NCBI GenBank assembly: GCA_902626585.1
Contig: CACOGA010000001.1
Coordinates: forward strand, 124,001 to 188,000
Source: an uncultured Bacteroidota bacterium
GTDB taxonomy: Bacteria; Bacteroidota; Bacteroidia; Flavobacteriales; Flavobacteriaceae
Direction of reading: 5' to 3'
Length of the DNA stretch: 64,000 nt
Shown here: positions 4,055 through 8,707 of the stretch, piece after piece
Position numbering within the stretch: the stretch's first letter is position 1
How the letters are laid out: each line of letters starts with the position of its first letter
Translations under genes and position numbers: made by a program
The notes under the pieces: generated by a model
Seen by the model: the letters and a program-made list of their open reading frames with translations, nothing else
The model's database searches: none
What the model was told of the DNA's origin: nothing

Positions 4055-5322
4055 TTCTTATAAATCTCACCATTTTTCATTACAAATATTACGTTCTCTA
4101 GGGTTCTAATATCATTTTCAGGGTTTGATTTAGTAGCTATGATATCAGCAAAAAATCCGTTTTTTATTTGTCCTATTTTAGAATCCATCGAAAGAATTTT
4201 AGAATTTACAATGGTCGCCGCTTGAAGGCATTCAATAACCGGAATTCCAGCTTCATTCATAAACCTGAACTCTTTTGCATTATTTCCATGTGGGAATACA
4301 CCTGCATCTGAGCCAAAAGCAATATTGACACCAGCCTTATATGCTCTTTCTGTAGTACTTTGAATCTTTGGGCCAATTGCTAAAGCTTTGGGTACTACTA
4401 GTTCATCATAGTAGCCGGGAATTTTTGCATTAGCTGCTACCTCTTTTCCTGCAGTAATTGTAGGAACATAATAAGTTCCATATTCCTTCATTAGTTTCAT
4501 CGACTCATCACTTAATAATGTGCCATGCTCAATTGTAAGAACACCTCCTTTTATAGCTCTTTGAATCCCTTCATCTCCGTGTGCATGTGCTGCAACGGTC
4601 ATATCATAATCCTTTGCAGTTTCACAAATTGCTTTAATTTCTTCAATCGTAAATTGAGGATTTTGTCCATTTTTTGCAATACTCATAACCCCACCAGTCG
4701 CAGTAATTTTAATGACATCAGCCCCGTTTTTATATCTTTCACGAACTGCTTTTCTAGCATCATCAACTCCGTTAATAACCCCATCCTGTGGTCCTGGGTC
4801 TCCTGCTATACTTTTTTTCCATCCATTTGTTGGGTCAGCGTGACCTCCTGTTGTTCCAATCGCCTTTCCAGCAGTAAATATTCTAGGCCCTATGACTTCA
4901 CCCTTATTGATAGCATTTCTCAAAGAAATATTTACACCACTTCCACCCAAATCTCTTACTGTTGTGAAACCAGCCATCAGAGTACGTTTTGCAAATTTTA
5001 TTGAGCTGAAAGCTATTTCTGATTCCTCTGCTGTAAATTCATTTAAATATTTTTCAGGATTATATTCGCTTTCCATATGCACATGTAAATCAATAAATCC
5101 AGGCATTACGGTTGAATCTTTTAAATCAATAATGATATTATCACTGTCTGGAATTTCAAAGCCCTTTTTTACACCCTTAATTTCAGTACCTGAAACAATG
5201 ATTGTCATCTTATCTAACATCTTTCCCTCTTTTGAGTCGAACATTTTTCCGGCGTGAATGTAGTAGTCTTGTGCGCTCAGTGTTAAAGTGAATAATGAGA
5301 TTAAAAACAATAATTTTTTCAT
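4051..5322 (-). CDS. Secreted metal-dependent amidohydrolase (imidazolonepropionase/prolidase-like)
   Basis: Exported zinc-dependent hydrolase of the amidohydrolase superfamily. I place the start at the ATG at 5322, which gives a clean signal peptide (MKKLLFLISLFTLTLSAQ); a TTG 21 bases upstream lies inside a probable -7 element. The TIM-barrel metal site is visible: HVH (about residues 80-82), the KITATGG strand with a likely carboxylated lysine, AHAHG, EHGTL, and GSDAG near the C-terminus. Similar Bacteroidota proteins are annotated as prolidases or imidazolonepropionase-related enzymes, but the substrate (perhaps a dipeptide or cyclic amide) cannot be read. It is transcribed alone, divergent from kdtA, and its stop overlaps that of lspA. 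Confidence 0.85.
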   Translation of the reverse strand: MKKLLFLISLFTLTLSAQDYYIHAGKMFDSKEGKMLDKMTIIVSGTEIKGVKKGFEIPDSDNIIIDLKDSTVMPGFIDLHVHMESEYNPEKYLNEFTAEESEIAFSSIKFAKRTLMAGFTTVRDLGGSGVNISLRNAINKGEVIGPRIFTAGKAIGTTGGHADPTNGWKKSIAGDPGPQDGVINGVDDARKAVRERYKNGADVIKITATGGVMSIAKNGQNPQFTIEEIKAICETAKDYDMTVAAHAHGDEGIQRAIKGGVLTIEHGTLLSDESMKLMKEYGTYYVPTITAGKEVAANAKIPGYYDELVVPKALAIGPKIQSTTERAYKAGVNIAFGSDAGVFPHGNNAKEFRFMNEAGIPVIECLQAATIVNSKILSMDSKIGQIKNGFFADIIATKSNPENDIRTLENVIFVMKNGEIYKN

Positions 5323-5367: not shown

Positions 5368-5375
5368 TACTTTTG
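5368..5375 (+). promoter_or_regulatory. -7 promoter element upstream of waaA
   Basis: TACTTTTG is a perfect match to the Bacteroidota -7 consensus TAnnTTTG. It overlaps the only plausible TTG start codon of waaA, so one of the two is probably not used as drawn. A weaker alternative (TAATTTTT, about 5356-5363) would leave room for the TTG start. Confidence 0.4.
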
Positions 5376-6596
5376 TTTAAAATTTATAATATTAATTCTC
5401 TCATAGTTAAAATATTCGAAGTTGCAATAAACCTTCTCGCCCCTTTTTCAAAAAAAATTGAGAAGGGAGTTTTAGGCAGGAAGATGAGTTTTGAAAAATT
5501 AAAATCCTCGTTTAATAAAGCTGATAGTATCATACATATTCATTGTGCATCTCACGGCGAATATTTAATGTCAGAAAAATTAATTAAGAATCTAAAAGAG
5601 AAATTCAATAATCATAAATTCTTACTATCATTTATTTCACCTTCTGGTTATGAAAATACTAATACAAACTTATTCGATTGTGTCATTTACCTCCCTATTG
5701 AATCAGATAAAAATTGTATTAAGTTTTATGAAATAATTTCTCCAAAAGCTACATTTTTTATCAAGAACGAAGTTTGGCCAAATTTTATCAAACATGCAAA
5801 AATTAATGGATCAAAAGTTTACTCAATAGGCAGCAGTTTTAAGTTAAATTATTTAAAAAAAATATTTAAAATAAATTCAGCGATAAAAGCATTTGATTTG
5901 ATATTTGTGGTAAATGAAAATTCAAAAAAAATAGTTGAGAAAATAGGAAATAAAAATGTAATTGTTTGTGGGGATTTAAGATTTGATTCTGTTATTGAAA
6001 AATTAGACAATAAAACAGCTAATCTTGTAGACAGCTTTATCGGAAATAATAATTGTATTGTATTTGGAAGTACATGGGAAGAAGATGAAGATTTAATAAT
6101 TAAATTTATTAACGATTGCGATGGAAAAAATAAATATATCATTGCCCCACATGAAATGGGTGAAAATCCTGAAAGAATTAAAAAACATTTAGGAGATAAG
6201 TCACTATTATTTTCAAAAATAAAGTCGATTAAAAATTTGAAAGAATCTTCATGTTTAATTATCGATAATATCGGAATATTAGCTTCACTATACTCATATT
6301 GCACAATTGCTTATGTCGGAGGTGGAATGGGAAAAAGGGGGCTACATAACACACTGGAGCCAGCTTACTTTTCAAAACCAATAATAATAGGCAAAAACTA
6401 CAATGGTTTTGAGGAGGCCGAAAAGATGATAAAGAATGGAAGTATGATTAGTATTTCGGATTACAAGGAGTTTAAAAACACTATAGATTCGATTATTTCG
6501 GATAGAAACATAAGACAAGAAATGTCAAAAAAATGCACTAAATATTTTAACCAAAATAAAGGAGCAGTGAAATTAATTTTAGCTCATCTCCATTAG
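5373..6596 (+). CDS. waaA: 3-deoxy-D-manno-octulosonic acid (Kdo) transferase
   Basis: Glycosyltransferase family 30 enzyme attaching Kdo to lipid A precursor at the inner membrane. The 407-residue protein has a hydrophobic N-terminal anchor, the HCASHGEYLMSEKLI block (acceptor site), NEVWPNF, and the C-terminal donor-binding stretch AYVGGGMGKRGLHNTLEPAYFSKPIIIG. The start is uncertain: no ATG or GTG occurs before residue 38, and the TTG used here lies inside a perfect -7 promoter box (TACTTTTG, 5368-5375). The protein aligns from about this point with my memory of flavobacterial homologues, so either another promoter is used or translation begins at a rare codon such as ATT at 5382. Asn/Lys-rich with AAA/AAT codons, like the rest of the window. 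Confidence 0.9.
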   Translation: MFKIYNINSLIVKIFEVAINLLAPFSKKIEKGVLGRKMSFEKLKSSFNKADSIIHIHCASHGEYLMSEKLIKNLKEKFNNHKFLLSFISPSGYENTNTNLFDCVIYLPIESDKNCIKFYEIISPKATFFIKNEVWPNFIKHAKINGSKVYSIGSSFKLNYLKKIFKINSAIKAFDLIFVVNENSKKIVEKIGNKNVIVCGDLRFDSVIEKLDNKTANLVDSFIGNNNCIVFGSTWEEDEDLIIKFINDCDGKNKYIIAPHEMGENPERIKKHLGDKSLLFSKIKSIKNLKESSCLIIDNIGILASLYSYCTIAYVGGGMGKRGLHNTLEPAYFSKPIIIGKNYNGFEEAEKMIKNGSMISISDYKEFKNTIDSIISDRNIRQEMSKKCTKYFNQNKGAVKLILAHLH

Positions 6597-6681
6597 CTTA
6601 TTAATTTTATTTTGAAAAATTAATAATATTATTGAATTACAAAATCAACTAACAAATTTTTTAAAAAGTTAAGTACTAAAA

Positions 6682-6706
6682 AAGGGAGTAAAAATATTAC
6701 TCCCTT
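6682..6706 (-). terminator. Hairpin terminator, minus-strand direction
   Basis: A 10-bp perfect stem (AAGGGAGTAA, 6682-6691, with TTACTCCCTT, 6697-6706) and a 5-base loop. Only the minus strand has a following T-run (6683-6678), so it would end minus-strand transcripts, namely read-through from the Trp-leader attenuator at 6766-6796. In the plus direction it lies 85 bases after waaA without a U-tract. Confidence 0.7.
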
Positions 6707-6765
6707 AATTAAATATAAATAAACAAACTAAAACTAATTACTAACTATATAATTTAAAATGTTAC

Positions 6766-6796
6766 AAAAAAAAAAGCTTATCGTGATGATAAGCTT
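6766..6796 (-). terminator. Attenuator terminator of the orphan Trp leader
   Basis: A perfect 9-bp stem (6774-6782 with 6788-6796) and 5-base loop, followed on the minus strand by a run of ten T (6775-6766). It is the terminator half of a tryptophan attenuator: the alternative pairing uses bases 6820-6829 (end of the leader peptide gene) against 6781-6791, with A6787 bulged out, and would destroy this stem. On the plus strand a run of six T also follows the stem, so it may stop waaA transcripts as well. Confidence 0.8.
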
Positions 6797-6823
6797 TTTT
6801 CAAATTAAAATATAGCGACTACC

Positions 6824-6880
6824 TCACGAAATGAATATTTCATGTTTCCACCACCACATATTTAATTGTAATTTTTTCAT
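6824..6880 (-). CDS. Trp-rich leader peptide of an orphan attenuator
   Basis: An 18-codon frame, ATG to TGA, encoding MKKLQLNMWWWKHEIFIS, with three consecutive TGG codons at positions 9-11. The stop lies inside the strand that forms both the protector hairpin and the antiterminator, as expected for a regulatory leader. A -7 box (TATATTTA, 6893-6886) ends five bases before ATG, so the mRNA probably begins at or next to the start codon. Three adjacent Trp codons are very unlikely by chance in such AT-rich DNA. No trp biosynthesis gene is adjacent, which is the odd feature. The peptide itself may have no function, or may act in trans as described for the trpL peptide of Sinorhizobium. Confidence 0.75.
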   Translation of the reverse strand: MKKLQLNMWWWKHEIFIS

Positions 6881-6885
6881 TGATG

Positions 6886-6893
6886 TAAATATA
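6886..6893 (-). promoter_or_regulatory. -7 promoter element of the Trp leader
   Basis: TATATTTA matches TAnnTTTG in 7 of 8 positions on the minus strand and ends five bases before the leader ATG. The -33 TTG is not evident in the AT-rich upstream DNA. Confidence 0.5.
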
Positions 6894-6997: not shown

Positions 6998-8707
6998 ATG
7001 TCTGCATTTAAAGAAATTGGTGTTAATAATGATTTATGTAAAGCCATAAAAGAAATGAGCTTTGTTAACCCTACAGAGGTTCAAGAACAATCTATTCCAT
7101 TTTTATTAACCGACACTAGAGATCTTATCTCACTTGCTCAAACAGGTACAGGTAAAACTGCAGCTTTTGGGTTACCAATAATCCAGAAAACTCAATTAAA
7201 AGATAATTATGTACAATCTATAATATTGTGTCCAACAAGGGAACTTTGCATCCAAATTTGTAAAGATTTGGAAACTTACTCAAAATATGTTTCAGGAATT
7301 AAAATTTTATCTGTTTACGGAGGAGCTAATATTGAAACACAAATTAAATCATTAAAAAAAGGAGTTCATATTATAGTTGGAACACCTGGAAGAACCAAAG
7401 ATTTAATTAACAGGCGAGTTTTAAAATTAGAATTGGTTAATAAAGTAGTACTCGATGAAGCAGATGAAATGCTAAGTATGGGCTTTAAGGATGATTTAGA
7501 CTTTATATTGGAAAGAACAAAAACCAACAGACAGACAATGCTTTTTTCAGCTACGATGTCTAAAGAGGTGAAAAGTATTGCAAAAAGATACATGAAAGAT
7601 GCAAGGGAAATAAGTGTATCAAAAATTAATTCAGGAGCTAAAAACATAGAACATCATATATATAATGTAAGTTCTAGAAATAAGTACGAAGCGCTAAAAA
7701 GAATTGCTGACTTCAATCCCAATATATATGGAATTGTTTTTTGTAGAACTAAAAGACACACAAAAGAAATCGCAAATAAATTTATGGCTGAAGGGTATAA
7801 TGCAGATGCAATTCACGGTGATTTATCTCAAAGCCAGAGGGATGAAGTTATGCAAAGATTCAGAAACAAATCATTAGAAATTCTAATTGCGACTGACGTT
7901 GCAGCTCGTGGCTTAGATGTAGATGATATTACTCATGTAATTAATTATTCTCTTCCTGATGATCCTGAGGTTTATATCCATAGGAGTGGAAGAACAGGAA
8001 GAGCTGGAAAAAGTGGAATTTCAATTGCAATTTCTAATGACAGTGAAAAAAGAAAAATAAAATCGATTGAAAAGAAAGGTGGTATAAAATTCTATAATAA
8101 AGAAGTCCCAACGGGGATTGAAATTTGTTCAAACCAACTATATAAACTGATTGATAAAATCGAAAATGTCGAAGTTGATGAAAAGCAGATTAAGCCATTC
8201 CTAGATGATATTTATAAAAGACTTGAATGGCTTGATCGTGATGAGTTAATTAAAAGATTTGTATCAGCTGAATTTAACAGATTTTTAAATTATTATAAAG
8301 AGTCAAATAAATTACAATCAAAAAGGAGCAGAAAATCTGACAAAAAAAGAGGAAATGGTAAATCACTAGCAGGATTTTCGATTAACATTGGAAGAAAACA
8401 TAGAGCAACTCCGATTGATATTATTTCAATTATTAACAGAGCTTTAAAATCTAATGATATTGAAATTGGTAAAATCGAACTAAACAGATATCAAACTTTT
8501 TTTGAGATTGACAAAGATTTCGCTGATAAATTAAAGTCCAACATTAAAAAAATTGATTTTAGAGGAAATGAAATTATTTTAGGAAGTTCTATTGATTTTG
8601 AAGAAATGCCATTCAGAAATGGTAATGATAGAAAAAAATCAAGAAGGAAAATTAGTTCCAAAAAAAGATCAAAGAAAAAGAAAAAGAAAAAATCTAGATT
8701 TAAATAA
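6998..8707 (+). CDS. DEAD-box ATP-dependent RNA helicase (DeaD/CsdA-like) with DbpA-type RNA-binding domain
   Basis: Cytoplasmic RNA helicase, probably for ribosome assembly or mRNA turnover. Motifs in order: Q motif near residues 24-32, motif I AQTGTGKT (47-54), PTREL (80s), motif II DEAD (153-156), motif III SAT (184-186) and motif VI HRSGRTGRAG (about 329-338). A linker leads to a DbpA-type RNA-binding domain (about 455-525) and a strongly basic tail of Lys/Arg repeats (about 545-569) made of AAA/AAG codons. Monocistronic: about 400 bases separate it from waaA, and a strong bidirectional hairpin follows. A CATTTG sequence about 20 bases before ATG may be part of its -7 box. The basic tail may anchor it to RNA. 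Confidence 0.93.
   Translation: MSAFKEIGVNNDLCKAIKEMSFVNPTEVQEQSIPFLLTDTRDLISLAQTGTGKTAAFGLPIIQKTQLKDNYVQSIILCPTRELCIQICKDLETYSKYVSGIKILSVYGGANIETQIKSLKKGVHIIVGTPGRTKDLINRRVLKLELVNKVVLDEADEMLSMGFKDDLDFILERTKTNRQTMLFSATMSKEVKSIAKRYMKDAREISVSKINSGAKNIEHHIYNVSSRNKYEALKRIADFNPNIYGIVFCRTKRHTKEIANKFMAEGYNADAIHGDLSQSQRDEVMQRFRNKSLEILIATDVAARGLDVDDITHVINYSLPDDPEVYIHRSGRTGRAGKSGISIAISNDSEKRKIKSIEKKGGIKFYNKEVPTGIEICSNQLYKLIDKIENVEVDEKQIKPFLDDIYKRLEWLDRDELIKRFVSAEFNRFLNYYKESNKLQSKRSRKSDKKRGNGKSLAGFSINIGRKHRATPIDIISIINRALKSNDIEIGKIELNRYQTFFEIDKDFADKLKSNIKKIDFRGNEIILGSSIDFEEMPFRNGNDRKKSRRKISSKKRSKKKKKKKSRFK

Follow-up and report, generated by a model that had tools for sequence, protein, structure and literature searches.

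The window analysed here, a stretch of 64,000 nucleotides from the genome (G000) of an uncultured flavobacterium, carries on its minus strand an element which, judging from its sequence, is the Flavobacteriaceae trp leader, i.e. a tryptophan attenuator with no trp gene behind it. We consider it fairly probable that this orphan leader is a slowly decaying relic of a trp attenuator whose controlled Trp genes have been deleted, and that it marks a locus of loss and regain.

The leader lies between two genes of the plus strand, a waaA/kdtA-like transferase gene (5373-6596), convergent with the leader, and a DEAD-box RNA helicase gene (6998-8707), divergent from it. On the minus strand, a probable Bacteroidota -7 promoter element, TATATTTA (6886-6893; consensus TAnnTTTG), precedes a trpL-like leader ORF of 18 codons plus TGA (6824-6880, MKKLQLNMWWWKHEIFIS), in which three tandem TGG codons occupy positions 6848-6856. 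Given the position of the -7 element, 6893-6886, transcription would begin at or just before the ATG, and the RNA may be leaderless. Folding and alignment define a protector hairpin 1:2 (6825-6844, arms 6844-6837 and 6832-6825), the pairing across copies defines an antiterminator 2:3 (6781-6829, arms 6829-6820 and 6791-6781, A6787 bulged), and an intrinsic terminator 3:4 follows (6766-6800; hairpin 6796-6774 and a run of ten T at 6775-6766). The stop codon of the leader sits inside the 5' arm of the antiterminator. For all these elements, coordinates included, the initial annotation agrees with the sequence, and the second terminator that it had noticed behind the leader was placed by a terminator scan at 6706-6682 (whole feature 6676-6706), where block comparison also sets the end of the conserved block.

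The predicted fold of the 120-nt leader has an energy of -31.6 kcal/mol, compared with -16.05 +/- 2.85 for shuffled sequences (z = -5.5), and none of 200 shuffles was as good. No second copy of the leader was found elsewhere in the window genome in a search allowing up to one mismatch. The only known RNA families that cmscan reported in the window were two tRNAs, and the window leader did not reach the gathering threshold of Rfam Trp_leader (RF00513). A phage origin was considered and rejected, with zero matches among 50,697 phage records. Behind the leader, an TTAGTTTTAGTTTGTTTA-like element is followed by a G/C hairpin (window 6765-6676; L025 about 4850-4930); this pair is kept not only behind orphan leaders but also, where the operon is present, between leader and trpE.

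The genus to which the window belongs consists of uncultured marine Flavobacteriaceae, known largely from single-cell and metagenome assemblies that are 56-87% complete. Searching its genomes for the leader, a check that the initial annotation had proposed for related genomes, recovered it in most of them, with 77-100% identity and mostly at the same site. All 18 aligned genus copies keep the 18-codon ORF, its frame, the three TGG codons, the terminator and the antiterminator pairing; the TGG run has therefore not been lost in these relatives. In the antiterminator, 95.5% of the alignment cells are paired, compared with 19-49% after sliding; the pairing is kept in G002 through a register shift, and in G003/G012 through a double change from G-C to A-U, which is a compensatory change of the kind sought in relatives. 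The protector is weak in G008 and in several orphans. The -7 element TATATTTA is present in every genus copy but that of G012, which reads TATCTTTA, while other Flavobacteriaceae read TATATTTG at this position.

A covariance model built from the 18 genus copies matched in 171 of 199 Flavobacteriaceae genomes at E <= 0.01, weak matches among these not being trusted. Among the 80 matches inspected, 77 adjoin trpE, one adjoins trpB2, one is the window itself and one is a weak match at an aspartokinase-like gene; the best 20 comprise 18 by trpE, the one by trpB2 and the window, and 59 of the next 60 are by trpE. The exception, L157, was examined as a possible gene-free leader and rejected, as it lacks a Trp ORF, although its terminator is similar, and, by our own reading, precedes an aspartokinase-like start. 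These 80 matches include no gene-free orphan leader from another genus; orphans were seen only in the genus of the window. Across the family, the leader peptides carry WW or WWW. Because the matches adjoin trp genes family-wide, the window element descends from trp attenuators, and this comparison strongly backs the original attenuator reading.

Within the genus, the leader precedes trpEGDCFBA in nine species, mostly in the same gap beside the helicase gene, and a stand-alone trpB2 in one (G020), and it stands alone in seven genomes, namely G000 (the window), G001, G002, G003, G004, G011 and G012. The locus is flanked by the helicase gene on one side and, on the other, by waaA or its neighbour, a dehydrogenase gene; in G007, G010 and G019, leader and operon occur in a related setting with the helicase gene not adjacent, and G009, G014, G016 and G018 are uninformative, the locus being missing or broken in the assembly. 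No trpB, TrpE or trpD was found in the seven leader-only genomes, whose assemblies are incomplete. This includes the genome of the window (86.6% complete), where the sole match in the search for TrpE is a weak one to a paralogue and where the initial annotation had already noted that no trp gene lies behind the leader. Tryptophan auxotrophy of the leader-only genomes is graded as probable rather than proven, owing to this incompleteness. A replacement SNF-type amino-acid transporter was found in none of the 21 genomes.

Given assemblies of this type and completeness, it might be argued that the trp genes behind the leader were simply lost in assembly, or that a duplicate leader found in G017 (see below) was misassembled. 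However, in all seven genomes helicase gene, leader and flanking gene follow one another without a break within contigs, the junctions are of three kinds, and trp genes are found nowhere else in them. An artefact is therefore very improbable, G017 alone being more vulnerable to it.

Some further arrangements were observed around the locus. The stand-alone trpB2 of G020 (L027:5120-6598), next to which no trpA, trpE or trpD was found, lies behind the Trp attenuator and apparently serves indole salvage under Trp attenuation. A trpB2 gene lies behind the same leader also in another genus (G201); L074, from another genus, shows the leader-trpB2 order of G020, and in L060-L062 WW-rich ORFs precede trpB2. 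G006 contains two near-identical trp operons on two contigs of one bin (L023, L024), maybe a strain mixture (6% contamination). A PQQ-type dehydrogenase gene is present between leader and waaA in L037 (5069-6412), L038 (5153-6490) and L033 (3581-4918), the copy tested (L037) carrying a T9SS sorting tail; its absence from the window genome indicates a second gain or loss at the locus.

The arrangement in G020 also offers an explanation for the sequence behind the window leader. In G020, the T run of the leader is followed by ...GTTAACATTTAAAATG, where trpB2 starts, and the gene ends with ...CCAATTATATAGTTAATAATTAG. The window reads ...GTAACATTTTAAATTATATAGTTAGTAATTAG, that is, the sequences that precede and end trpB2 in G020 are joined and the gene between them is missing. 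Because this junction (GTAACATTTTAAATTATATAG, 6745-6765, minus strand) fuses the upstream bases of trpB2 to its last codons, a deletion scar is the best reading of the orphan; over a short match of about 20 nt, this scar points to the loss of a stand-alone trpB2 behind the leader. The C-terminal motifs of TrpB2 from other genera, LNTPLIP and LNTPEIP, are similar to the LNTPII of G020, which indicates that the gene end in G020 is native. The junction of the window (scar A) is common to G001, G004, G011 and the second leader copy of G017; G003/G012 and G002 have junctions that differ from it, which suggests at least two, and probably three, losses of trp genes at this locus. The order of events that we infer is operon, then trpB2, then nothing. 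The initial annotation had envisaged a relic of a moved trp operon: relic is close to what we find, while the genes appear not to have moved but to have been lost at this very spot, with a scar that points to stand-alone trpB2.

The locus has also been subject to transfer. Identity at four-fold sites of trpE is 85% between G017 and G005 and 89% between G008 and G013, as against 56% and 38%, respectively, for rpoB; such agreement, far above that of rpoB, indicates that operons moved between species. G017 carries in tandem a leader, the trp operon and a second, scarred leader, so that an orphan leader remains behind trpA. Its first leader combines resident, G004-like sequence upstream with donor, G005-like sequence downstream, and the donor trpA end is joined to what lies upstream of the resident leader through a short AATTAAAAT-like stretch common to both. 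The hybrid leader at one junction and the short common sequence at the other suggest that the orphan leader was the homology anchor for the regain. In this one assembly, G017 looks like a genome that reacquired the operon at its orphan leader, which would have provided the homologous junction.

In addition, leader segments recombine, as indicated by the window leader, which matches the operon leader of G005 at every position over 127 nt (100% identity) while the four-fold sites, which are saturated, agree at only 43-45%, and by the mosaic of G011, where a leader of G002/G003 type is joined to scar A. In the rpoB tree, the scar-A orphans G000, G011, G004 and G017 group with the operon-bearing G008 and G016, and G001 falls outside this group with weak support; this fits an old loss followed by later regains, or the spread of an orphan allele. 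The tree of the helicase gene (window 6998-8707 and relatives) conflicts with that of rpoB, G006 for example grouping with G003/G012/G020, which implies recombination across the whole locus.

The question is then whether the orphan leader is retained by selection. All eight orphan copies keep ATG, 18 codons, three TGG codons, stop and terminator. Both switch helices are weaker on average in these eight copies than in the ten gene-bearing ones (one-sided Mann-Whitney, p 0.010 for the protector and 0.005 for the antiterminator), p values that are indicative only, as the copies are related and not independent. Conversely, substitutions avoid the functional columns, which make up 49% of the alignment: three of 17 substitutions fall in them in scar A orphans (p 0.008) and none of seven in scar B orphans (p 0.009), unlike the prediction of pure neutral drift. 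Although silent sites are saturated between G000, G004 and G001 (37-47%), the block that runs from the promoter to the second terminator retains 89-96% identity among these genomes; just past that terminator, similarity falls to 54-67%. Type-B leaders (G002, G003, G011, G012) were seen here as orphans only. The constraint pattern in orphans resembles that in operon leaders, and could be explained by recombination with operon-bearing relatives.

The initial annotation had offered a Trp-sensing small RNA as its other reading. A Trp-sensitive small RNA and/or leader peptide acting in trans, like rnTrpL/peTrpL, and kept by selection after the loss of the cis genes, would account for the intact ORF, Trp codons and terminator of all eight orphan copies, for the substitution bias in orphans sharing a scar, for the double change in G003/G012 that keeps the antiterminator, and for a conserved block that stops at the second terminator; it would also fit the persistence of this block in seven genomes without the genes, and an attenuator RNA and peptide acting in trans have a precedent (PMC7298713). 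The weaker switch helices of the orphans, however, speak against such an element, as does the lack of any orphan outside the genus among the 80 matches inspected, and recombination with operon-bearing relatives could keep leaders intact without any function. We regard it as possible, though doubtful. The fuller proposal, rather unlikely in our estimate, is that in Trp-auxotrophic marine flavobacteria the orphan leader is selected as a free-standing Trp-sensing RNA of two lengths or as a Trp-rich peptide in trans, and serves also as a re-entry site for transferred trp operons. Alternatively, mainly the terminators might be conserved, the hairpins acting as (bidirectional) terminators that separate the helicase promoter from waaA, with an ORF persisting only because the loss is recent. 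The terminator columns are indeed unchanged within the scar A and scar B groups, and the first hairpin carries a T run also on the plus strand; nevertheless, this leaves the ATG, the TGG codons and the antiterminator complementarity of every orphan unexplained, and we consider it quite unlikely.

The relic interpretation is given no higher weight because selection and recombination are inseparable with the present data. It would imply that the Trp genes behind the attenuator were deleted and the leader was left behind, probably still transcribed. With charged Trp-tRNA, a short RNA of about 115 nt would end at the first terminator, while a ribosome stalled at the Trp codons would give a longer RNA of about 205 nt, ending at the second. 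Neither length would control a downstream gene here, which would make the switch a slowly decaying relic whose similarity between species is kept partly through recombination. The weaker switch helices of the orphans and the exchange of leader segments between species fit such a relic.

The locus thus presents, among close relatives, successive stages of one amino-acid pathway: a full operon, a single salvage gene, a bare regulator and a regained operon. The open-access literature, of which our coverage was incomplete, yielded no earlier account of the Flavobacteriaceae leader or of trp attenuators without genes. Like the ribosome-mediated trp attenuators represented by enterobacterial trpL and Rfam Trp_leader, the window leader has a tandem-Trp ORF, a protector, an antiterminator and a terminator, and in enterobacterial trpL, too, the stop codon lies within the switching arms. 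The short ORF with consecutive Trp codons is predicted in 18 of 18 genus copies, and the hairpins are mutually exclusive, the position of the Trp codons being suited to blocking arm 1; trp biosynthesis genes directly downstream, the defining feature of such attenuators, are in contrast lacking in the window but present behind homologues at the locus and family-wide. The Rfam Trp_leader model misses this leader at its cut-off, and the present comparison therefore defines a Flavobacteriaceae trp leader that Rfam thresholds overlook. Stand-alone trpB2 (TIGR01415), which follows the leader in G020 and G201, is absent from the window, where its proposed trace is the scar of about 20 nt.

In natural transformation, DNA can integrate with one homologous and one microhomologous junction. 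The junctions of G017, a single genome, resemble such an integration: the first leader is a hybrid, and the trpA end shows a short stretch of common sequence. The locus suggests that the place where a lost operon re-enters can be marked by a leftover regulatory leader. In Sinorhizobium, experiments have shown that the attenuator products rnTrpL and peTrpL act in trans, the attenuator RNA being able to exist as a free small RNA whose 5' end carries a small ORF (PMC7298713), an organization to which the leaderless start proposed for the window would correspond. That attenuator, however, still precedes and controls trpE(G) in cis (PMC7298713), whereas the window leader has no genes behind it. Nature provides in this locus a test of whether the RNA of an attenuator can outlive its genes through action in trans.
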